The position numbers and the translations under genes were made by a program. Shown here piece after piece: positions 11,842 to 33,130 of a stretch of 64,000 nt of DNA. Position 1 is the stretch's first letter, and the number at the start of each line of letters is the position of its first letter. The notes under the pieces are model-generated. The model was not told the origin of the DNA and did not search any database. It worked only from the letters and a program-made list of their open reading frames with translations. The DNA is from Gordonia polyisoprenivorans (lineage in GTDB: Bacteria > Actinomycetota > Actinomycetes > Mycobacteriales > Mycobacteriaceae). The stretch is from the NCBI RefSeq assembly GCF_017654315.1, contig NZ_CP072203.1, positions 5,828,001-5,892,000 on the forward strand. Direction: 5' to 3'.

Positions 11842-12679
11842 GTTCCCCCTCAACGGTTTCAGAGCCTCCGAGCAGGGCCGCGGTCAGGTGTGCCACGATC
11901 TCGTCTCGCGCCCGGATCGTCGGATGACCGGCCTCGTCGACGAGGTGGGCGGTCACCACGCTGTGCGGGGTGCCGACGACGTCGGCGAAGAACGGCGGCG
12001 GACTCGGATTCGCCGACGACCCCGGCAGCACGCGCCCATCGAAGCGGTCGCCGAGCAGCTCGGTATAGGCGGCGAATCGTGCTGCGGTACACCATCGGTC
12101 GGTGTCGAACCGATAGCCGATCACCCGCAGGTCGTCGGCGTCGAGCCTGCGGCGCAGGGCGTGGCCGTCGGCTTCGGACAGTTCGAGACCGCCCGGGTCG
12201 TCGAGCGGCAGTGACGGGTGATTGATGACGGCCGCGACGACCGAGTCGTCGAGCATCATCGTGAGGGCGAAGTTGCCGGTGAAACACAACCCGACAGCGC
12301 CCACACCCGGCCCACCGCATTCGGCATGCGCCGCCCGCGCGAGCGCGCGCAGCGTCGTCGCGATCGGGCTCGTACCGCCCCCGGCGAAGGCATGGAACTC
12401 CCGGCTCACGCACGCCCGCTTCATGATCGCCGTGCCCGTCTCGGTCCGCGGATACGCTCCGTCCACCCCGAACAACGACGGCAGGAAGACGGTCAGTCCG
12501 GCGTCGCGTATCCACCGACCGAATCGCAGCACGTCGGGGCTGATGCCCGGCATCTCCGGCATCAACACCACCGCAGGGCCACTGCCCGAGGTCCACACCA
12601 TCAGTTCGTCGCCGTCGAGATCGAAGCGGCGAGCAGTGAAATCGGTCATCGGATCATCGGTCGCGGAGGTCGGGGTCAT
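11834..12679 (-). CDS. Dienelactone hydrolase family protein
   Basis: This 281-residue alpha/beta hydrolase has the cysteine nucleophile motif GAVGLCFTGNFAL near residue 130. A late DEAGHPTIRARDEIV segment supplies a candidate catalytic His. Family members open enol-lactones such as dienelactone, but many act on other esters. It is cotranscribed with the GlxA-type regulator. A later ATG at 12649 is a possible start; neither start has a strong ribosome binding site. Confidence 0.82.
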   Translation of the reverse strand: MTPTSATDDPMTDFTARRFDLDGDELMVWTSGSGPAVVLMPEMPGISPDVLRFGRWIRDAGLTVFLPSLFGVDGAYPRTETGTAIMKRACVSREFHAFAGGGTSPIATTLRALARAAHAECGGPGVGAVGLCFTGNFALTMMLDDSVVAAVINHPSLPLDDPGGLELSEADGHALRRRLDADDLRVIGYRFDTDRWCTAARFAAYTELLGDRFDGRVLPGSSANPSPPPFFADVVGTPHSVVTAHLVDEAGHPTIRARDEIVAHLTAALLGGSETVEGEHG

Positions 12680-12784
12680 GTCCTCAATGCTCGGTCATCA
12701 CCAGGTCACGACGACAGTGGCGGGATCGCCATATTTTAGGGTGATCCCGCCACCATACATCGGACGTCGTGGAAAATGGGGTTC

Positions 12785-13510
12785 ATGCCCGACGACCTCC
12801 ACTTCTATTTCGACCCCGTGTGCCCGTTCGCCTGGATGACCGGTAACTGGGTGCGACAAGTGCAAGCGCAACGGAGCTATTCGGTCGACTGGCGGTTCAT
12901 TTCTCTACGCCAACTCAACGCGCACATCGACTATGCGGCCCACTTCCCACCGGAGTACGAGGCCGGGCACACCGCGGGACTGCGCCTGCTCCGCGTGTGC
13001 GCGAGCGTCCGACGTGAACATGGGCGCGAGCTGATGAATCCGCTGTATCAAGCCTTCGGTAGACGGATCTTCGACGAGCACACCGGCACCTACCTCATCG
13101 AGGGCCGCGATGCGCGGGGCACCGAGGACTTCCTGCGGCCCGTCCTGACCGAACTCGGGCTTCCCGCACACCATGTCGCGGCCCTCGACGACACCTCACT
13201 CGATGCCGAGATCCAGGCCGAGACCGACGAGGCCCTCGCATTGACCGGACGCGACGTCGGCACGCCGATCATCCATGTCGAACCGCCCACGGGTGTCGCC
13301 TTTTTCGGTCCGGTCATCAGCCGCCTGCCCGACGACGCCGACGCCCTCGAGTTGTGGGATCACGTGGTCGGCCTCGCTCGATTCCCGGGCTTCGCCGAGC
13401 TCAAGCGCAGCCTCCGAGAAAAGCCACAGCTCAAGAGTTTCGGTGTCGACGTCGACGCCGTCGGCGAACAAGAGGACTGGCACGGCGGGTCTCGGCGGAC
13501 CAAGCACTGA
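12785..13510 (+). CDS. DsbA-fold protein, mycothiol-dependent nitroreductase (Rv2466c) type
   Basis: The 241-residue protein aligns by eye with mycobacterial Rv2466c. It has FYFDPVCPFAWMTGNWV at the N-terminus, DVGTPIIHV near the cis-Pro position, and VAFFGPVISRLP followed by PGFAELKRSL at the end. Rv2466c reduces substrates using mycothiol and has a CPWC motif. Here the motif is CPFA, so the second cysteine is missing. A single-cysteine mechanism with mycothiol is likely. The start at 12785 was chosen because the preceding in-frame ATG (12776) adds only three residues. Confidence 0.83.
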   Translation: MPDDLHFYFDPVCPFAWMTGNWVRQVQAQRSYSVDWRFISLRQLNAHIDYAAHFPPEYEAGHTAGLRLLRVCASVRREHGRELMNPLYQAFGRRIFDEHTGTYLIEGRDARGTEDFLRPVLTELGLPAHHVAALDDTSLDAEIQAETDEALALTGRDVGTPIIHVEPPTGVAFFGPVISRLPDDADALELWDHVVGLARFPGFAELKRSLREKPQLKSFGVDVDAVGEQEDWHGGSRRTKH

Positions 13511-13531
13511 CGGGCTGGTTACTGTTTCCTC

Positions 13532-13873
13532 ATGACGACCGACTGGCGAGCAGCCCGCGCCGACGAGGTGCGCACCCTGATCCTGCAGGCCGACCCCGAC
13601 ATCGGCGAAGAGATCAAGTGGCGCAAGCCCTCCAATCCCGATGGCGTACCGACATTCTCGCTCGACGGACTGATCTGCACCCTGGAGACCTACAAGGACA
13701 AGATCAAGGTCACCTTTGCGCAGGGGGCTTCGCTGCCCGACCCGGGACAGGTCTTCAACGCAAGCCTGACCGCCGGCACCCGCCGGGCCGTCGACATCAA
13801 GGAGAACGATCAACTCGACGCCGACGCGTTCGTCGAACTGATCCGCGCGGCGGTGGCCCACAACCGGAAGTAG
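13532..13873 (+). CDS. DUF1801 domain protein
   Basis: The 113-residue protein shows the DUF1801/YdhG-like pattern: EIKWRKPSNPDGVPTFSLDGLICTLETYKDKIKVTF, then a helical tail with LDADAFVELIRAAV. The fold is known but the biochemical role is not. It follows the DsbA-like gene by 21 bases on the same strand and may be cotranscribed. Confidence 0.8.
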   Translation: MTTDWRAARADEVRTLILQADPDIGEEIKWRKPSNPDGVPTFSLDGLICTLETYKDKIKVTFAQGASLPDPGQVFNASLTAGTRRAVDIKENDQLDADAFVELIRAAVAHNRK

Positions 13874-25287: not shown

Positions 25288-25959
25288 GTGCGGGTGCTGG
25301 TCGTCGACGACGACGCAAATGTCGCCGAAACCGTTCGCCGGGTACTGGCCACCTCCGGATGGAACGTCACGGTCAGCGGCGACGGTCTGGACGCCCTGGC
25401 CCAGGCGAGCGCCGAGGAATTCGATGCGATCGTGCTCGACATCATCCTGCCCGGTCTCAACGGTTTCGAGGTGGTCCGCGAGTTGCGGCGGCGTGAGGTC
25501 TGGACGCCGGTGGTGATGCTCTCGGCCAAGGACGGCGAGTACGACCAGGCCGAGGCCCTCGATTACGGGGCCGACGACTACCTGGTCAAACCCTTCTCGG
25601 TGGTGGTGCTCAACGCACATCTGCGGGCCGTGGTGCGGCGCGGTGGCCGGGAGCGCCCCGCCGTGCTCACCGCCGGAACGCTCAGTCTCGACCCGGCCCA
25701 GCGGGTGGTTTCCCGCTCCGGGCAGGTCATCACGCTGACACCGCGCGAATACTCGGTACTGGAACACCTGATGCGCCACAAGGGTACCGTCGTGTCCAAA
25801 CATTCCATCCTGCAATCGGTCTGGGACGAGAACTACACCGGAGACGAGAACATCATCGAGGTGTACATCGGCTACCTCCGCCGCCGTATCGACCAGCCGT
25901 TCGGGGTGTCCTCCATCGAGACCGTACGCGGGGCCGGCTACCGGCTGCGGGAGGACTGA
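25288..25959 (+). CDS. Two-component response regulator, OmpR/PhoB family
   Basis: The 223-residue regulator has a receiver domain with VLVVDDDANVAE at the start. The phospho-acceptor Asp is in IVLDIILPGLNG near residue 51, and the conserved Lys is in YLVKPF. The C-terminal winged helix has LTPREYSVLEHLMRHKGTVVSK and NIIEVYIGYLRRRID. It starts with GTG. Its 3' end overlaps the convergent histidine kinase gene by 22 bases. Kinase and regulator are probably partners despite the unusual tail-to-tail order. Confidence 0.94.
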   Translation: MRVLVVDDDANVAETVRRVLATSGWNVTVSGDGLDALAQASAEEFDAIVLDIILPGLNGFEVVRELRRREVWTPVVMLSAKDGEYDQAEALDYGADDYLVKPFSVVVLNAHLRAVVRRGGRERPAVLTAGTLSLDPAQRVVSRSGQVITLTPREYSVLEHLMRHKGTVVSKHSILQSVWDENYTGDENIIEVYIGYLRRRIDQPFGVSSIETVRGAGYRLRED

Positions 25960-27503
25960 GCAGGGTCTCGGTCTTCCGGCGACAGACCGTCGTGTGCCGT
26001 CATCGGTAGTCGTACAACGAATTCGACACCGCCACCGGTTCTCTCGGCCACCGCGACGCTGCCGTCGTGGGCCCGGACGATCTCCCGCACGATGGCCAGG
26101 CCGAGCCCGGCACCGGATCCCTGACGCCGGTCGGCGTCGACTCGGGCGAACCTGTCGAAGATGCGCTCGCGCTGCTCTTCCGGGATGCCCGGACCGTCAT
26201 CGCCGACGGTGATCACCGCGTCGTCACCGTCGGCGCGCAACGATAGCGACACCCGGGAGCGGGCGTATCGGGCGGCGTTGTCGGTGAGGTTGCGGACGGC
26301 GCGCGCGATCATCTCCCGGTCACCGGCCACCCGAACGGGTGTCAGATGCGGCTCCACCACAACGGTGTTCGACGATCTGAGCCGAGTGATCTCGGCGCCG
26401 ACGATGTCATCGAGGTCGACCTCGGTCCGCTGCAGTGGCAGTCCGCGTTCGTCGGCGCGGGCCAGCAGCAACAGGTCGTCGACGATGTGTTGCATTCGTC
26501 GCGCCTCGGGAAGCAGCACGGCCCGAACCGTTTCCGCGTCGATCGCGGTGTGGGAATCGTCGGCGAGGTCGAGGAGTCCGACGACGGTGGTCAGTGGGCT
26601 GCGCAGTTCGTGGGAGGCATCACCGACGAAGCGCAGTTGTGCGTCGTGGCTGGACTCCAGTCGACGCAGCATCCCGTTCATCGTCACCGCCAGCGCTCGG
26701 ATCTCGTCGTGCGCCTCGGGTACCGGTACGCGTTGGCCGAGACGGCTCGCACTGATCTCATTGACCCGCCGGGAGATTCGTGACACCGGCCGCAGGGATC
26801 GGCCGACGAGGAGGTAGACGGCCCCGGCGCCGAGGATCACGACCATCGGCAGTTCGACGGCCATGATCGAGGCCATCGTCCATTCACTGCTGCGAATGCC
26901 GCTCGCGCGGTCGAGCGCGATGACCGAATAACGTTGTCCGGCATACCTGGCCGTCACGGCGGTCGCGCAGTACTCGCCATGGAATCCGGGGATGTAGACG
27001 TCGTCGGCGTAGACCGGCGAGTCGTCGGCCGGTACGGTGCCCGCCCCGGCCGACTGGTATCCGGCGAGTGTCACCGCGCCGGTCGGCGCCCCCGGTGAGG
27101 CCACCACGACCGCGCCCTGCTCGTCGAGCACCTGCATCACATCCACGCCGGCGCCGGGGGCGAGATCGTCGGAGTCGACGGCGGTGGGTCCGCCGTGGGT
27201 GATGGCGGCGGCGATCTGGTAGGCCTGCCGGGCGGTGGATCGATACATCGCGTCGGTGTTCGCGCGGTGCAACATGTACAGCGTCACCGCGCCGCCGATC
27301 CCGAGAGCCACGGCCACCACGATCGCCGCGATCACCGTCGACTGCACTCGTACACCCCATCGGGCGATTGGTGACGACAAAGATCTCTTCACTGCTCGGG
27401 ATCTCTTCACTGCTCGGTCCGTCCCGCGTCCGGCGCCGCGAATCGGCTGGTAGAGGGCATCGATCGGCGTGGAACGCTGGTCGCACAGTGTATTCGATGC
27501 CAC
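25938..27503 (-). CDS. Sensor histidine kinase
   Basis: The membrane kinase has a first transmembrane segment (VIAAIVVAVALGIGGAVTL), an extracytoplasmic sensor of about 130 residues and a second segment (MAVELPMVVILGAGAVYLLVG). HAMP and HisKA domains follow, with FVGDASHELRSPL carrying the phospho-His. The catalytic domain shows NLTDNAARYA, GDDGPGIPEEQ and GAGLGLAIV. The start is uncertain. The N-terminus contains a tandem 18-bp duplication (RAVKRS twice), and GTG codons at 27410 or 27392 are alternatives to 27503. It probably phosphorylates the response regulator ending at 25959. Confidence 0.92.
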   Translation of the reverse strand: MASNTLCDQRSTPIDALYQPIRGAGRGTDRAVKRSRAVKRSLSSPIARWGVRVQSTVIAAIVVAVALGIGGAVTLYMLHRANTDAMYRSTARQAYQIAAAITHGGPTAVDSDDLAPGAGVDVMQVLDEQGAVVVASPGAPTGAVTLAGYQSAGAGTVPADDSPVYADDVYIPGFHGEYCATAVTARYAGQRYSVIALDRASGIRSSEWTMASIMAVELPMVVILGAGAVYLLVGRSLRPVSRISRRVNEISASRLGQRVPVPEAHDEIRALAVTMNGMLRRLESSHDAQLRFVGDASHELRSPLTTVVGLLDLADDSHTAIDAETVRAVLLPEARRMQHIVDDLLLLARADERGLPLQRTEVDLDDIVGAEITRLRSSNTVVVEPHLTPVRVAGDREMIARAVRNLTDNAARYARSRVSLSLRADGDDAVITVGDDGPGIPEEQRERIFDRFARVDADRRQGSGAGLGLAIVREIVRAHDGSVAVAERTGGGVEFVVRLPMTAHDGLSPEDRDPAQSSRSR

Positions 27504-27564: not shown

Positions 27565-29238
27565 ATGGTTGCCGCAGGTACCGTCGCCGAGTGCATCCTC
27601 GAGGCCGCACGTGAGCACGGAATCAGCGTGGTGTTCGGGGTCCACGGCGCCAACATCGAGGACGTGTACGCCACCGGAGCGGTGATCGGCATGCCGATGG
27701 TGGTTGCCAAACACGAGTTCGCGGCGGGCGCGATGGCCGACGGGGTCGCGCGGATGACCGGGCGGCCGGGCATGGTCGTGACCACATCCGGCGGGGGTGC
27801 GCTGAATGTGGTTGCTGCGCTGGCGGAATCCTACGACAGCCGGGTGCCGGTACTCGCGGTGATCGGCGCACCCCCGACACCACTGACCGGACGCGGTGCC
27901 TTTCAGGACATGCTCGATCCCCCCGACACCATCGATCTCACCGCCGTGCTCGGCGGCGTCACCGGATACTGTGCGGTGGTGCGCTCGGCGGCCGATCTCG
28001 GGTCTGCACTCGCCAAGTCGTTCGCCACGCTGCGCCGCGGCCTGCCCGCCGCCCTGATCGTGCCGAAAGACGTTCAGACGCAGCGCTATGACGGGACGGT
28101 CAGCACCGGCATCGGCACTGCGGACGTTACCGATGCCGCGGAGGAGACATCGGCAGCCCTTGACACCCTGGCCACGCTGCTCGCCGAGCGCGTCATCGCA
28201 GGCGCACATACATGTGTGTGGGTCGGCGACGAGGTGTCGCGCTCCCATGCGGGCGAGACCGTCAGCGCGATCGCGACGATGCTCGGTGCCACGATCGTTG
28301 CCGCACCCGGTGGCGCCGATGCCGTCACCGACCTCACCACGCACGCCGGGGTGACCGGGGTGATGGGCCATCCGTCGGCACGGCGGGCCCTCGCCGACGC
28401 CGATGTGTGTCTGGCGCTCGGTACCCGGATGACGGTCACCGATCGCGGTGGCCTCGACGACGTGCTCGACGGGATCGAGCTGTATCACGTTGGCGAACAG
28501 CCTCCTCGGTATCCGAGCAAGACCGTCGCGGTCACGTCGATCGCCGCGGCGCTGGCTCAGCTCGCAGAGTCTGCGCCCCTGCGTCGGCTCCGGCCGCGTC
28601 GCCCACCGCGGGCGGTTGTCGAATACCTGACGACACCACAGGCCCCCGATCCACATCTGCCGGACCTACCAGCACTCATGGCGGCGATCGACGCGCACCT
28701 GCCCCGCGATGCGCGGGTGTTCGCCGACGCAGGCAACGCCGGAGCAGCTGCGTTGCACCATCTGACACCGCGCCGCTCCGGCCGCTTCACCGTCGCCCTC
28801 GGCATGGGCGGCATGGGATACGCGATCGCCGCGGGGATCGGGGCCGCCATCGACGATCCGTCCCGGCGAAGCGTGGTGATCGCCGGCGACGGTGCGTTCT
28901 TCATGCACGGAATGGAGTTTCACACTGCCGTGGAGCATGACGCCCCGGTCACCCTGATCGTCCTCAACAACAACGCCCACGGCATGTGCGTGACCCGAGA
29001 GAACCTGTATTTCCCGGAGAAGTTCGGTATCAACAGATTTCGCTCCACGGATATCGCCGGTGCCGTGTCGGCACTGTTCGCGGGCGTGGCGGTCCGCCAT
29101 CCCCACGATGCGGCCGGCGCAAGCGCCGCCTGCGCGGTGCTCTTCGCCGATCGCGGACCCAATTGTCTTGTCGTCGAATGCCACAGCGATGAGGTTCCAC
29201 CGTTCGCCCCCTTCCTGCCCCGAGAGGACTCCGCATGA
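27565..29238 (+). CDS. Thiamine diphosphate-dependent decarboxylase/carboligase
   Basis: The 557-residue ThDP enzyme is of the acetolactate synthase/benzoylformate decarboxylase superfamily. It has the catalytic Glu (AKHE51) in the PYR domain, a central TPP_M domain, and the PP-domain metal motif GDGAFFMHGMEFHTAVEHDAP...NNN near 440-475. It is not close to the biosynthetic IlvB in gene context, because no IlvN or IlvC is present. Its stop overlaps the next start by 4 bases (ATGA), the first of three such overlaps. It likely decarboxylates a 2-keto acid and either releases or transfers the acyl anion. The substrate is unknown. Confidence 0.88.
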   Translation: MVAAGTVAECILEAAREHGISVVFGVHGANIEDVYATGAVIGMPMVVAKHEFAAGAMADGVARMTGRPGMVVTTSGGGALNVVAALAESYDSRVPVLAVIGAPPTPLTGRGAFQDMLDPPDTIDLTAVLGGVTGYCAVVRSAADLGSALAKSFATLRRGLPAALIVPKDVQTQRYDGTVSTGIGTADVTDAAEETSAALDTLATLLAERVIAGAHTCVWVGDEVSRSHAGETVSAIATMLGATIVAAPGGADAVTDLTTHAGVTGVMGHPSARRALADADVCLALGTRMTVTDRGGLDDVLDGIELYHVGEQPPRYPSKTVAVTSIAAALAQLAESAPLRRLRPRRPPRAVVEYLTTPQAPDPHLPDLPALMAAIDAHLPRDARVFADAGNAGAAALHHLTPRRSGRFTVALGMGGMGYAIAAGIGAAIDDPSRRSVVIAGDGAFFMHGMEFHTAVEHDAPVTLIVLNNNAHGMCVTRENLYFPEKFGINRFRSTDIAGAVSALFAGVAVRHPHDAAGASAACAVLFADRGPNCLVVECHSDEVPPFAPFLPREDSA

Positions 29239-29900
29239 CCAGTCAGCCCGCCCCGCTCGCCGACCTCGGGGACCGCATCGCCGACATCGACGGGCTCATC
29301 CGCGTCGAGACCCACCCCCGCACGGTGGCGACCCCGATCATCGTCGACATGCTGCGCTCGGTGTACCCGCACGACAAGATCTTCGGGCAGTTCTGCCCGA
29401 TCCAGGGATACGTGGACGCACCGCCCCGCGAGCTGTTCTCCTGGCTCTCCGACACCCGCTCGCTGGAGGAATGGACCTACAGTCTGCGCGGATTCACCGA
29501 AACCGACGAGCCCGGCCTGTGGGTCGCCCAGGACCGCCTCGGCGACAACACCGAGATCTACACCCGCACCATCGCCGACCCGAATGCGATGACCGTCGAC
29601 TACCACTGCGCATGGGATCAGGGTGATCACCTGTGGATGATCTACCTGATGCGGGTCGTCGATGCGCAGGTGGTGTTGAATCGTCCGGGTTCGGTGGTGC
29701 TGTGGAACAACTGCCGGCATCCCTTCTACGACGAGAATCCCTACCCCGACACCGCGCCGCCCGATCGCCCGGTATGGGTCGGCGATTTCTGGGAGATGTT
29801 CTCTGCCGGACACCAACTCGAGCTCGACAATCTCACGGCGATCGCCGAGTTCCGCCACCACAACAACCTGCCCCTCACCCCGGAATGGATGACGTCATGA
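29235..29900 (+). CDS. SRPBCC-fold (polyketide cyclase/START-like) protein
   Basis: The 221-residue protein has a START-like pattern, with GYVDAPPRELFSWLSDTRSLEEWTY near residue 60 and FWEMFSAGHQLELDNLTAIAEF at the end. The fold binds hydrophobic ligands and acts as cyclase, dehydratase or carrier in biosynthetic pathways. It is coupled by 4-base overlaps to both the ThDP enzyme and the KAS III-like gene, so a role in the same pathway is strongly implied. Confidence 0.75.
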   Translation: MTSQPAPLADLGDRIADIDGLIRVETHPRTVATPIIVDMLRSVYPHDKIFGQFCPIQGYVDAPPRELFSWLSDTRSLEEWTYSLRGFTETDEPGLWVAQDRLGDNTEIYTRTIADPNAMTVDYHCAWDQGDHLWMIYLMRVVDAQVVLNRPGSVVLWNNCRHPFYDENPYPDTAPPDRPVWVGDFWEMFSAGHQLELDNLTAIAEFRHHNNLPLTPEWMTS

Positions 29901-30943
29901 CCGCCTCGACCAGACTTGATCCGACCCGCTCACCGGTGGTCCTGCGTGATCTCGCAGCCTATCTCCCCGACAACCGGGTCCCGGCCGACTATTTCGCCCG
30001 GTACGCCGCCGACGATGACCTTGCGGGCAACGTGATGTTCGCGGCACCTGCTTTTCGCCATCACGCCGCCGACGGTGAGACGTCGGCGGACATGATGGTC
30101 TCGGCGGCAGGCGTTCTCACCGATCGCCACGGGTCCGAGTACCTCGATGAGGTGAGCGTCGTGCTCACCCACAGTCAGCTGCCCGAGGTCCCGGTGCGGG
30201 GGTGTGGTGGCGAGTTGGCGCATCGGCTGGGATTGCGGCCCCGGACCGTCCTCGACGTCCACAACGCGGGGTGTGCGGCGTTTATGCACATGATCGACAT
30301 CGCCGGTTCGTTGCTTCGCGCCGACGGTGGGGGAGCGGCGTTGATCGCGCTCGCACAGAACAGCGCGGCGCAGATCTTCACCCAGGAGCAGGTGCGCGGC
30401 AAAGCCCAGGCCGCCATCCCCGGCGACGGTTCGGCCGCAGCACTGTTGACCCTCGGTGACGACGGCTCGCCGGTTCTCGGGTCGGCCGCCCACTCCTTCG
30501 GTGAGTACTCGGCGGACATGGCGTCGGTGTCGTCTCCGCCTCGGAAATACTGGGAGGCCGGGCCCGGAGAGATCCACATCGGTTTCACCGAGTCGCGCAT
30601 CACCAAGGTGCTCGCGCGCGGTAACCGCATGGTTCCCGAGGTGGCGATCGAGGTGGCCGATGCGATCGGCATCGCTCCGTCGGCGCTGGACTGGTTCATC
30701 ACCAATCAGCCCAATCGGATCTTCTTGCGCAACTGGCGCGAAGCACTCGAACTCCCCGAAGAGCGTCACCCCGACACCTTCGACGAGTGCGGCAACCTGT
30801 TCGCCGTCGGTGTCCCCGCGACCCTCGACACCGCGATCGACGACGGGCGTATCCGGCCCGGCGACGTGGTGATGATGTCGGCATTCGCCCACGCCGGCGA
30901 CTTCGCCGCGGCCACCGCCGTTCGCTGGGCCGGCAGACGGTGA
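29897..30943 (+). CDS. KAS III-fold (FabH-like) acyltransferase or synthase with His-to-Asn active site
   Basis: The 348-residue thiolase-fold protein has the KAS III nucleophile in VHNAGCAAF (Cys about residue 126). FabH enzymes use a Cys-His-Asn triad. Here the HQAN motif reads TNQPNRIF, so Asn (about 270) replaces His, while the late Asn in ECGNLFAVGVP (about 300) remains. Loss of His argues against decarboxylative condensation with malonyl-ACP and for acyl transfer or a distinct condensation. It overlaps both neighbours by 4 bases (ATGA and GTGA). It could also be a pathway-specific ketosynthase using a non-malonyl partner. Confidence 0.83.
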   Translation: MTASTRLDPTRSPVVLRDLAAYLPDNRVPADYFARYAADDDLAGNVMFAAPAFRHHAADGETSADMMVSAAGVLTDRHGSEYLDEVSVVLTHSQLPEVPVRGCGGELAHRLGLRPRTVLDVHNAGCAAFMHMIDIAGSLLRADGGGAALIALAQNSAAQIFTQEQVRGKAQAAIPGDGSAAALLTLGDDGSPVLGSAAHSFGEYSADMASVSSPPRKYWEAGPGEIHIGFTESRITKVLARGNRMVPEVAIEVADAIGIAPSALDWFITNQPNRIFLRNWREALELPEERHPDTFDECGNLFAVGVPATLDTAIDDGRIRPGDVVMMSAFAHAGDFAAATAVRWAGRR

Positions 30944-32013
30944 CCCGCCACCTGCACTCGGCACCCGATCCGCCGCCGCGGATCTCATCGCAGAGACCTG
31001 TTGCACTGCAACGGATACCGCTCGATCTCAACGAGTCCGCATACGGGCCGCTACCGAGCCTGGCGCGCGCCCTGACCGATGCGGTGCCCTCGCTCAACCG
31101 CTATCCCGAGTTTCTGCCGGATCGGACGCGGCGCACCATCGCCGGACATCTCGGCGTCGACGACGACGCGGTGACGGTGGGGCCGGGGGCCACCGGCGTG
31201 CTCGCCGCCGCGCTGCACTGCGCCGTGCGCCACGGTGCTCGACGCGGCGTTTCGGTGCCCGAATTGCTGACGCCGGTACCCACGTTCGGCGGCTATCCGA
31301 TCCTCACCCGCAGTCTCGGGCTACGCTTTCGCGGCCTGCCTCTTGATGTGCGGGGCCGTCCGGACCTGCAGAAACTGTACGAGCGGGTCGGCACCGACAC
31401 CGTCGCGGTCGCGGTGTGTTCACCGCACAACCCAACCGGCGCGGTACTCGACTCCACCGAGTTGTTCGGCTTCTGTGCCGCGCTACCCGACGACGTCACC
31501 GTGATCATCGATCAGGCCTACCTCGAATTCGCGGATACCGCACCGGATCTCGAGAGCATGCTCGCGACTCACCGGCGTGTCGTCGCGGTACGAACGTTCA
31601 GCAAGGCACACGGGCTTGCCGGGTTGCGCGTCGGGTACGGGGTGGGTCAGATTCCGTTGATCGACGAACTCCGTTCTCACGAAGTGCCTTTCGCCGTCGG
31701 ATCGCTCGCCGAACTCGCGGTTCCACTGACCCTGGACTGCTCGGACGAGTTGTCCGAACGGGTGCGGCGGATGCGGATCGAACGCAGATACCTTGCCGAC
31801 AGATTGCGAGCGGCGGGCGCCCACCCATGGCCCAGTCACGCCAACTTCCTGTTCCTGCCCGGCGCCGAGGGCATCGCTCTCGGCGATGTCCTCATCGCAT
31901 GCGGCATTTCGGTCACACCGTATCGGCCACACGGTCTTCGGATCACCGTCGGCGATCGGCACGACACCGAGCGCGTGATCCGAACACTGAAGACGGTGGC
32001 GGCCTCGGCCTGA
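30940..32013 (+). CDS. PLP-dependent aminotransferase, HisC-like (class I/II)
   Basis: The 357-residue fold-type I enzyme is of histidinol-phosphate aminotransferase type. It has LDLNESAYGPLPSLARAL near 35, CSPHNPTGAVLD near 165, the Asp/Tyr pair DQAYLEF near 195 and the PLP lysine in FSKAHGLAGLRVGYG near 225. HisC-like proteins outside his operons often act in specialised metabolism. The GTG at 30940 overlaps the preceding stop (GTGA). It probably aminates, or supplies by deamination, the keto substrate of the ThDP enzyme. Confidence 0.88.
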   Translation: MTRHLHSAPDPPPRISSQRPVALQRIPLDLNESAYGPLPSLARALTDAVPSLNRYPEFLPDRTRRTIAGHLGVDDDAVTVGPGATGVLAAALHCAVRHGARRGVSVPELLTPVPTFGGYPILTRSLGLRFRGLPLDVRGRPDLQKLYERVGTDTVAVAVCSPHNPTGAVLDSTELFGFCAALPDDVTVIIDQAYLEFADTAPDLESMLATHRRVVAVRTFSKAHGLAGLRVGYGVGQIPLIDELRSHEVPFAVGSLAELAVPLTLDCSDELSERVRRMRIERRYLADRLRAAGAHPWPSHANFLFLPGAEGIALGDVLIACGISVTPYRPHGLRITVGDRHDTERVIRTLKTVAASA

Positions 32014-32080: not shown

Positions 32081-33130
32081 GTGCGCACCCTGGAGCAGAC
32101 CGCCGAGAAGTGGCGTCGTTTCCGCGGGTCGCGCTTCCTCCCGGCGACCGTGGTCACCCTGCTGTGCAGTGTGGCGGTGGCCCTGTTCGTCGGTTCCTAC
32201 ACGTACGCGACGGCCAATCCCCGGCCGGAGAGCATCCCGATCGCCGTCGTCGACAACCTTCCCAGCGCACAGTCACGAATGCTCGAGAGGGATCTCGAGG
32301 CTGCGATCGGCAGCTCGCTCGACATCACCTCCGTCGCCGACCGGGCGAGCGGCGTCGACCAGCTGGCCGAGCAACGGGTGTTCGCGATCGTGGAGATCTC
32401 GGCGCCGAATCAGGTAATGACCCTTGACATCTCGAGCGCGTCGGGTCAGGCAGTGGCATCATTGCTGACCGATACCCTTCCGCCCGCCGCACAGCGCGCC
32501 GGGTACACGGTCACGGTTCGGGACCTGCATCCGTTGCAGGACGGCGACCCGCATGGCCTGACGGTCTTTTACATGACGATCGCGGCGGTCGTCGTCGGGT
32601 TCGTCGGCGCCATCCAGCTCGGTGTACACGCGGCCGCGCTGAAACCGTGGGAGCGCATCGGATTCACGGGCGCCTACTCACTTCTGGGCGGGCTGTTGGT
32701 GACCTTCACCGTCGACCGGGTGGTGGCCACGCTCGATCTGCCGTTCTTCGAGGCCTGGTTCATCGTGGCGTTCACCATGTTCACGTGCGGCATGATCTTC
32801 ACGATGTTCAGTTCGCTGGTGGGCCGGTGGGCGATCCTGCCGACGTGGGCGGTGATGATCCTGCTCGGCAACCCGTCATCGGGCGGTTCGGTGGCGTGGC
32901 CGCTGCTGCCGCGCATCCTGGCGAGCATCGGTGGGTGGCTTCCGCCGGGTTCGACGGTCAGTGCCCTGCACACCGCCATCTACTTTCCCCACCACCAGCA
33001 CGCCGCTCCCTTCGTGGTGCTCGCGGCCTGGACTGTGTTGAGCACCAGCGTCTATCTGGTCAGACAACACCGTTCTCCCACCACCCCCGGCGCCTCGCCG
33101 GACCACGCGTCCGCCCCCGCCTCGGCCTGA
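32081..33130 (+). CDS. ABC-2/YhgE-like membrane protein
   Basis: The 349-residue protein has one N-terminal membrane segment (about 20-45) and an extracytoplasmic domain of about 120 residues. Roughly five to six further segments follow, including LTVFYMTIAAVVVGFVGAI and FTMFTCGMIFTMF. The pattern resembles ABC-2-type permeases or DUF3533 proteins, but no ATPase lies beside it. It starts with GTG 67 bases after the aminotransferase stop. It may export the product of the upstream operon, which is inference from position only. Confidence 0.7.
   Translation: MRTLEQTAEKWRRFRGSRFLPATVVTLLCSVAVALFVGSYTYATANPRPESIPIAVVDNLPSAQSRMLERDLEAAIGSSLDITSVADRASGVDQLAEQRVFAIVEISAPNQVMTLDISSASGQAVASLLTDTLPPAAQRAGYTVTVRDLHPLQDGDPHGLTVFYMTIAAVVVGFVGAIQLGVHAAALKPWERIGFTGAYSLLGGLLVTFTVDRVVATLDLPFFEAWFIVAFTMFTCGMIFTMFSSLVGRWAILPTWAVMILLGNPSSGGSVAWPLLPRILASIGGWLPPGSTVSALHTAIYFPHHQHAAPFVVLAAWTVLSTSVYLVRQHRSPTTPGASPDHASAPASA

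Follow-up and report, generated by a model that had tools for sequence, protein, structure and literature searches.

A four-gene operon of Gordonia polyisoprenivorans with a CqsB2-like cyclase and a Cys-Asn-Asn ketosynthase, homologous to but distinct from carbazole clusters

The carquinostatin pathway of Streptomyces employs four activities in the order aminotransferase, thiamine diphosphate (ThDP)-dependent enzyme, condensing enzyme resembling beta-ketoacyl-acyl carrier protein synthase III (KASIII) and cyclase, as outlined in an excerpt of PMC7466098. The section of that source on carbazole-type clusters notes Streptomyces cattleya, Sorangium cellulosum and Scytonema tolypothrichoides, and makes no mention of Gordonia, Nocardia or Mycobacterium. 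The related carbazoquinocins are 1-alkyl-2-methyl-3,4-carbazoquinones (excerpt of PMC11350554). Here we describe an operon of four genes at positions 27565..32013 (+) of a 64,000-nucleotide stretch of Gordonia polyisoprenivorans (contig NZ_CP072203.1, positions 5,828,001 to 5,892,000; hereafter the window), which belongs to a genome of 6.03 Mb in a single contig. The set had matched no pathway that a first-pass annotation, made from the sequence alone, could name, but its enzymes are of the same kinds as CqsB7, CqsB3, CqsB1 and CqsB2 from the carquinostatin pathway. We favour, with some reservation, the reading that it follows the four-step carbazole-type logic as a homologous but distinct branch.

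The correspondence is seen in the second gene (29235..29900, +), which encodes an SRPBCC protein. The protein has no match in Pfam or NCBIfam at an E value of 0.001; the carbazole synthase CqsB2 is its sole sequence match in the PDB and, by a wide margin, the best match to its predicted fold. In what follows, loci of the window's kind are called type N, and loci whose cyclase shares 71-98 % identity with CqsB2 (L152, L188-L191) are called type C, together with the Embleya locus L150, whose cyclase is 85 % identical to that of L188. The type C loci represent CqsB1, NzsJ, CqsB3 and NzsH in all comparisons, and sequences with internal stops or shorter than 60 to 80 % of the window protein, such as the KASIII of L189, were left out of trees and alignments. 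Residues Y144, Y172, H206 and E209 of the cyclase are conserved in the CqsB2-type protein of the window and in all 103 aligned type N rows.

At the position of Glu105, the window protein and the 103 type N rows have Asp and the seven type C rows have Glu. This difference was considered as a second diagnostic swap and rejected, because Asp and Met are also present among nearer relatives of CqsB2 (Glu in 80, Asp in 30 and Met in 10 of the best 120 of 588 relatives of a type C cyclase). Arg140 and His124 were likewise dropped as candidate carboxylate binders, with Arg occurring at CqsB2 position 147 in 82 of the 120 relatives on the other side of the split. Among the same best 120 of 588, the cyclases of Sorangium, cyanobacteria and others are closer to CqsB2 than type N is. 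The closest named relative of the window protein, among the best 120 of 1103 proteins listed, is from Gordonia oryzae (94 %). A third setting of the cyclase fold is seen at L159 (G154:C47, 9165-9779), whose distant CqsB2-like protein is 39 % identical to that of the window; in the 19.9 kb that include its gene no partner of the ThDP or KASIII kind was detected, and neighbouring genes encode flavin oxidoreductases, a methyltransferase, two beta-ketoacyl synthases and a radical SAM/B12 protein.

The cyclase gene is preceded by that of the ThDP enzyme (27565..29238, +; Pfam TPP_enzyme N, M and C), read from the ATG at 27565 in a frame which is open back to a GTG at 27469, and followed by the genes of the KASIII-like enzyme (29897..30943, +; Pfam ACP_syn_III and ACP_syn_III_C) and of a HisC-like, pyridoxal phosphate-dependent aminotransferase of class I/II (30940..32013, +; Pfam Aminotran_1_2). 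Successive genes overlap by four bases, ATGA at 29235..29238 (ThDP/SRPBCC) and 29897..29900 (SRPBCC/KASIII) and GTGA at 30940..30943 (KASIII/aminotransferase), all on the + strand. The open reading frames, junctions and families are thus those given in the first-pass annotation, Pfam supporting three of the families and the match to CqsB2 the SRPBCC assignment. An SRPBCC relative is encoded on 483 stretches of the named genome collection, the best 80 of which were analysed (the named loci). The order ThDP-SRPBCC-KASIII is contiguous and on one strand in 79 of these, the remaining one (L102) being cut by a contig edge; the aminotransferase gene lies next to this core in 70, and all three four-base overlaps are present in 24. 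This conservation agrees with the earlier proposal of a single coupled pathway unit and with the synteny on which that proposal depended. The type N genes are rearranged in a few Nocardia loci (such as L149 and L158).

A second complete set is found in the same genome (within C1:3,500,158-3,504,471, -), its ThDP, SRPBCC, KASIII and aminotransferase proteins being 51, 70, 72 and 44 % identical to those of the window. Directly upstream of this second copy (L156), on the same strand, lies a gene with a match to the C-terminal domain of GMC oxidoreductases (12003-13649), possibly coding for a tailoring enzyme, which has no counterpart at the window copy.

In KASIII enzymes the catalytic triad includes a His, and it is this residue which has changed in the window protein. 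Alignment with FabH and a survey of the family place the nucleophile Cys126 (codon 30272..30274), Asn270 (30704..30706) at the position of the catalytic His, and Asn300 (30794..30796), the motif around Asn270 being TNQPN instead of the THQPN of type C clusters. All five aligned type C rows carry Cys-His-Asn, whereas Cys-Asn-Asn is found in 102 of the 103 type N rows. Among further loci, TNQPN occurs in 14 of 14 Streptomyces type N loci and THQPN in four of four type C loci; TNQPN was also seen in L153-L155. The KASIII of L189, left out of the alignment, has THQPN. The exceptional type N row is the Gordonia locus L084 (10675-11265), where the KASIII match spans only 197 residues of a truncated or frame-shifted gene with full-length neighbours. 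The window protein scores 78.5 bits with the NCBIfam FabH model TIGR00747, far below the cut-off of 292.1, and with Asn270 it has the Cys-His-Asn triad neither of FabH nor of a CqsB1/NzsJ-type partner. Because the type N triad is Cys-Asn-Asn, the condensation step may differ from that of the carbazole pathway, also in whether it is decarboxylative. The swap is consistent across the branch, which makes the mechanism testable.

The ThDP enzymes also divide into two branches. The type N clade (support 100/98) and the type C clade (100/100) are joined (100/99) against three ThDP paralogues from the window's own genome, so that the window enzyme is sister to, and not within, the CqsB3/NzsH clade, although the program warned of long branches meeting at the junction of the two types. 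The SRPBCC and KASIII trees split in the same way, with branches to type C of 1.44 and 2.28 changes, respectively. On either side of a Glu which we take to be the catalytic one, type N differs from type C by R to H and D to F, and Phe is found at window positions 51, 407 and 504 (counted from 27568, i.e. one lower than from the ATG at 27565). Since the positions flanking the presumed catalytic Glu differ between the branches, the donor may be a keto acid other than indole-3-pyruvate. The best PDB relatives of the enzyme are BbmA structures (8xod/8x3x, 152 bits over about 540 residues), with CsmA (8x3z) in fifth place (120 bits, about 540 residues).

The aminotransferase scores 201.7 bits with the NCBIfam hisC model TIGR01141, below its cut-off of 276.55, and, judged from sequence, probably performs the conversion of an amino acid to a 2-keto acid. 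Other genes occur elsewhere: in Streptomyces, a class III aminotransferase gene adjoins the KASIII gene at the type N loci L200 and L202, and a FAD-dependent oxidoreductase of the DAO family and an acyl carrier protein are encoded nearby in four others (L155, L201, L204, L205). The supplier of the keto acid thus looks interchangeable. In seven Tsukamurella loci (L148, L056, L061, L070, L075, L087, L090) no aminotransferase gene adjoins the cassette; six of them (not L061) have a TrpB-like gene, mostly about 1.3 kb past the KASIII gene, and five of these six also have a flavodoxin-like gene upstream.

In the pathway that we infer from these homologies, the aminotransferase would first turn an aromatic amino acid, with tryptophan as the leading candidate, into its 2-keto acid, on which the ThDP enzyme would act second. 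The KASIII-like enzyme, acylated at Cys126 from acyl-coenzyme A or acyl-acyl carrier protein, would then join the acyl group to the preceding acid with loss of CO2, with a pair of Asn rather than His and Asn holding the enolate, and the CqsB2-like cyclase would accept the unstable product and close the aromatic ring. The output is likely to be an alkylated fused aromatic of catechol or ortho-quinone character, possibly a carbazole. What the sequences show is the homology, the order of the genes, the conserved residues, the exchange of His for Asn and the predicted fold; all the reactions, and with them the substrates and the product, are proposed on that basis. The combination of a keto acid and an acyl thioester, already suggested in the first-pass annotation, agrees with the homologous carbazole pathway. 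Its suggestion of an amine or N-acylated product does not, as in the homologous pathway the aminotransferase comes first, supplying the keto acid, and ring formation falls to the SRPBCC protein, a cyclase. Whether the set is an already characterised cluster has a divided answer: the sister type is characterised, whereas searches of the open-access PMC literature brought up no account of the type N branch, a description in subscription papers being possible.

Several observations weigh against a carbazole-type logic. The active-site changes in the KASIII and ThDP enzymes run through the whole branch, and the four genes of the window include no prenyltransferase, P450 or acyl carrier protein, unlike the CqsB and Nzs clusters. 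A HisC-like aminotransferase gene adjoins the cassette in only six of 14 Streptomyces type N loci and is often absent there. In the aminotransferase tree type N is not a single clade, four changes being needed, and the window enzyme is not tied to type C; as evidence on tryptophan this tree was uninformative and was discarded. No metabolite is known for the type N cassette.

The most specific alternative is that the His to Asn swap is neutral and that the product is a carbazoquinocin-like 1-alkyl-2-methylcarbazole-3,4-quinone without prenylation, with tryptophan, pyruvate and a fatty acyl thioester as its precursors. We regard this as a real but minority possibility. Carquinostatin formation as far as the ring requires the same four activities (PMC7466098, in the part cited above), the cyclase residues are conserved, and the carbazoquinocin structure (PMC11350554, likewise) fits, but the branch-wide swaps in the KASIII and ThDP enzymes, the long branches between the types and the presence of both types in one genome (G433) speak against it. 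Tryptophan-synthase-like genes lie near seven of 110 loci tested, six in Tsukamurella and one on a Nocardia plasmid; this link was set aside as weak, being confined to few loci and perhaps reflecting, in Tsukamurella, synteny at the level of the genus.

About as likely, and in our view likewise a minority possibility, is a version in which type N applies the same logic to a different keto acid, whether phenylpyruvate, 4-hydroxyphenylpyruvate or one of aliphatic type, and forms a ring product without indole. The branch-specific ThDP residues, with Phe at the three positions given above, would suit it, and the best PDB match of the aminotransferase is 4r2n, a putative phenylalanine aminotransferase (148 bits). 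The cyclase residues proposed for an indole substrate are nevertheless conserved, and the aminotransferase scores 172-178 bits (tblastn) with three type C loci, but 132 with a fourth and 131 with L152; the scores with 4r2n and with type C do not decide the substrate, because tblastn and phmmer scores are not comparable one to one.

It is unlikely that the Cys-Asn-Asn enzyme only transfers an acyl group, for example to a hydroxyl, without decarboxylative C-C condensation, leaving the cyclase to use an ester or a carboxylate-bearing intermediate. The near-universal Asn at the catalytic His position, the single other row being truncated, is what such a change of function could look like. However, KASIII enzymes whose acyl acceptor is an O or N nucleophile usually retain the His as base, loss of the His leaves no obvious base for the transfer, and Asn is still able to donate hydrogen bonds. 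A chance assembly of ordinary acetolactate synthase, FabH and HisC, which the coarse family names alone would allow, is very improbable in view of the synteny in 79 of 80 loci, the CqsB2 match and the scores of the best acetohydroxyacid synthase, FabH and HisC models, all far under their curated cut-offs (for the first, the acetolactate synthase model TIGR00118, 182.8 bits against an equivalog cut-off of 538.35).

Relatives of the SRPBCC protein are widespread around the window's host. They were found in 64 of 201 genomes of its family (15 of 31 genera; E 1e-10), and CqsB2 relatives in 27 of 394 genomes of its class (5 of 137 genera; E 1e-6). In Streptomyces (genus inferred), 36 of 392 genomes encode a CqsB2-like protein, only five of which have one that is type C-like (71 % or more); 17 of 33 lower-identity Streptomyces rows were examined and the other 16 placed by identity only. 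G433, which carries both types, is taken to be a Streptomyces genome. Among viral contigs, five stretches matched the pattern and none encoded a relative.

The cassette neighbours different regulators in different genera. In the window, a sensor histidine kinase gene (25938..27503, -), which the first-pass annotation had correctly noted as divergent from the operon, overlaps at its 3' end with the convergent gene of an OmpR-type response regulator (25288..25959, +), both identified by profile matches. At 15 of the 80 named loci, all of the Gordonia/Williamsia type, this pair adjoins the cassette. In the window the two genes overlap by 22 bases at their 3' ends, where an operon would be usual, and the convergent layout recurs in all 15 loci. 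The same arrangement occurs on a contig labelled Acidobacteriaceae (L050), which is probably mis-binned. The membrane protein at 32081, earlier proposed as an exporter, is not linked to the cassette, being present in two of 80 loci and about 7 kb off.

Of the 20 named mycobacterial loci, 16 have a sigma/anti-sigma pair immediately upstream of the cassette; among the other four, one stretch is cut off early, a second has the pair at a distance of about 6 kb, and none is seen in the last two. The sigma factor of locus L114 has SigL as its best PDB match (E 2.4e-93; next other sigma factor 1.1e-14), and the sole PDB match of its anti-sigma factor is 3hug_B, the RslA partner chain of the crystal (E 3.9e-38). 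Among 148 genomes inferred from synteny to be Mycobacterium, 99 have the SRPBCC protein (E 1e-20; including two stop-ridden and two partial or interrupted copies). In 70 of these 99, sigL lies at most 4 kb upstream on the same strand; in 57 the cassette stands between sigL and a MarR gene, and in eight the SRPBCC gene is elsewhere and the sigL-MarR junction is closed. Where the SRPBCC protein is absent and both flanks were found (n = 33), the flanks are 727-1502 bp apart in 30 genomes, leaving room for rslA, and not in three. The MarR gene rv0737 of M. tuberculosis is immediately downstream of sigL-rslA, its position varying among mycobacteria, and SigL-RslA is sensitive to redox balance (excerpt of PMC13002591); the sigL-rslA-rv0737 arrangement would then be the closed form. 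Many Nocardia loci also have sigL-like and rslA-like genes near the cassette, in other arrangements. The two stop-ridden SRPBCC remnants (G1005:C1:2257901-2258308 and G1040:C1:2218034-2218600) are in reduced genomes of 3.3 Mb, which suggests decay during genome reduction.

Taken further, carbazole-type logic would mean that probably hundreds of Mycobacteriales species, non-tuberculous mycobacteria included, make unrecognised cyclised, alkylated aromatics resembling carbazole quinones by way of the Cys-Asn-Asn ketosynthase line, and that the mycobacterial cassette is an original output of the redox-sensitive SigL-RslA switch, cleanly lost where sigL-rslA abuts the MarR gene. This wider proposal is speculative and, as a whole, doubtful. 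If true, a rare ring chemistry known from a few Streptomyces would extend to a conserved Mycobacteriales locus, one carried by many relatives of Gordonia, Nocardia and Mycobacterium, and SigL-RslA would gain a concrete neighbouring pathway in the mycobacteria retaining the cassette. As the whole set is four genes, the pathway could be reconstituted directly.

Compared with known systems, the window operon shares with the carquinostatin and neocarazostatin clusters (CqsB and Nzs) the four kinds of enzyme, including a CqsB2-fold cyclase with the Tyr, Tyr, His and Glu residues, a KASIII-like partner and a HisC-like aminotransferase, and the ThDP enzymes of both are sister clades. It differs in that all three core genes are on a separate branch, in the KASIII His to Asn swap, in hosts and regulators, and in gene order, which is ThDP-SRPBCC-KASIII, with the aminotransferase following, in the window and KASIII-SRPBCC-ThDP, with the aminotransferase apart, in CqsB and Nzs. 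The core order KASIII-SRPBCC-ThDP is also that of the type C loci. The operon is not filed in the CqsB/Nzs family, because of its KASIII triad and the position of its ThDP enzyme outside the CqsB3/NzsH clade, although it would appear to work like that family. With FabH the KASIII shares the fold family, the Cys and one Asn, the catalytic His being replaced. Of the alpha-hydroxy-beta-keto acid synthases BbmA and CsmA, the structural work on which is cited in PMC13307353, BbmA is the nearest solved relative of the ThDP enzyme and CsmA a lower match, both with remote similarity only. By its description in an excerpt of PMC10100901, the chlCz cluster for chlocarbazomycin in S. tubbatahanensis likewise combines an aminotransferase annotated as HisC, a ThDP enzyme, a KASIII and an SRPBCC carbazole synthase, and, unlike the window operon, adds an acyl carrier protein, oxidases and short-chain dehydrogenases/reductases.

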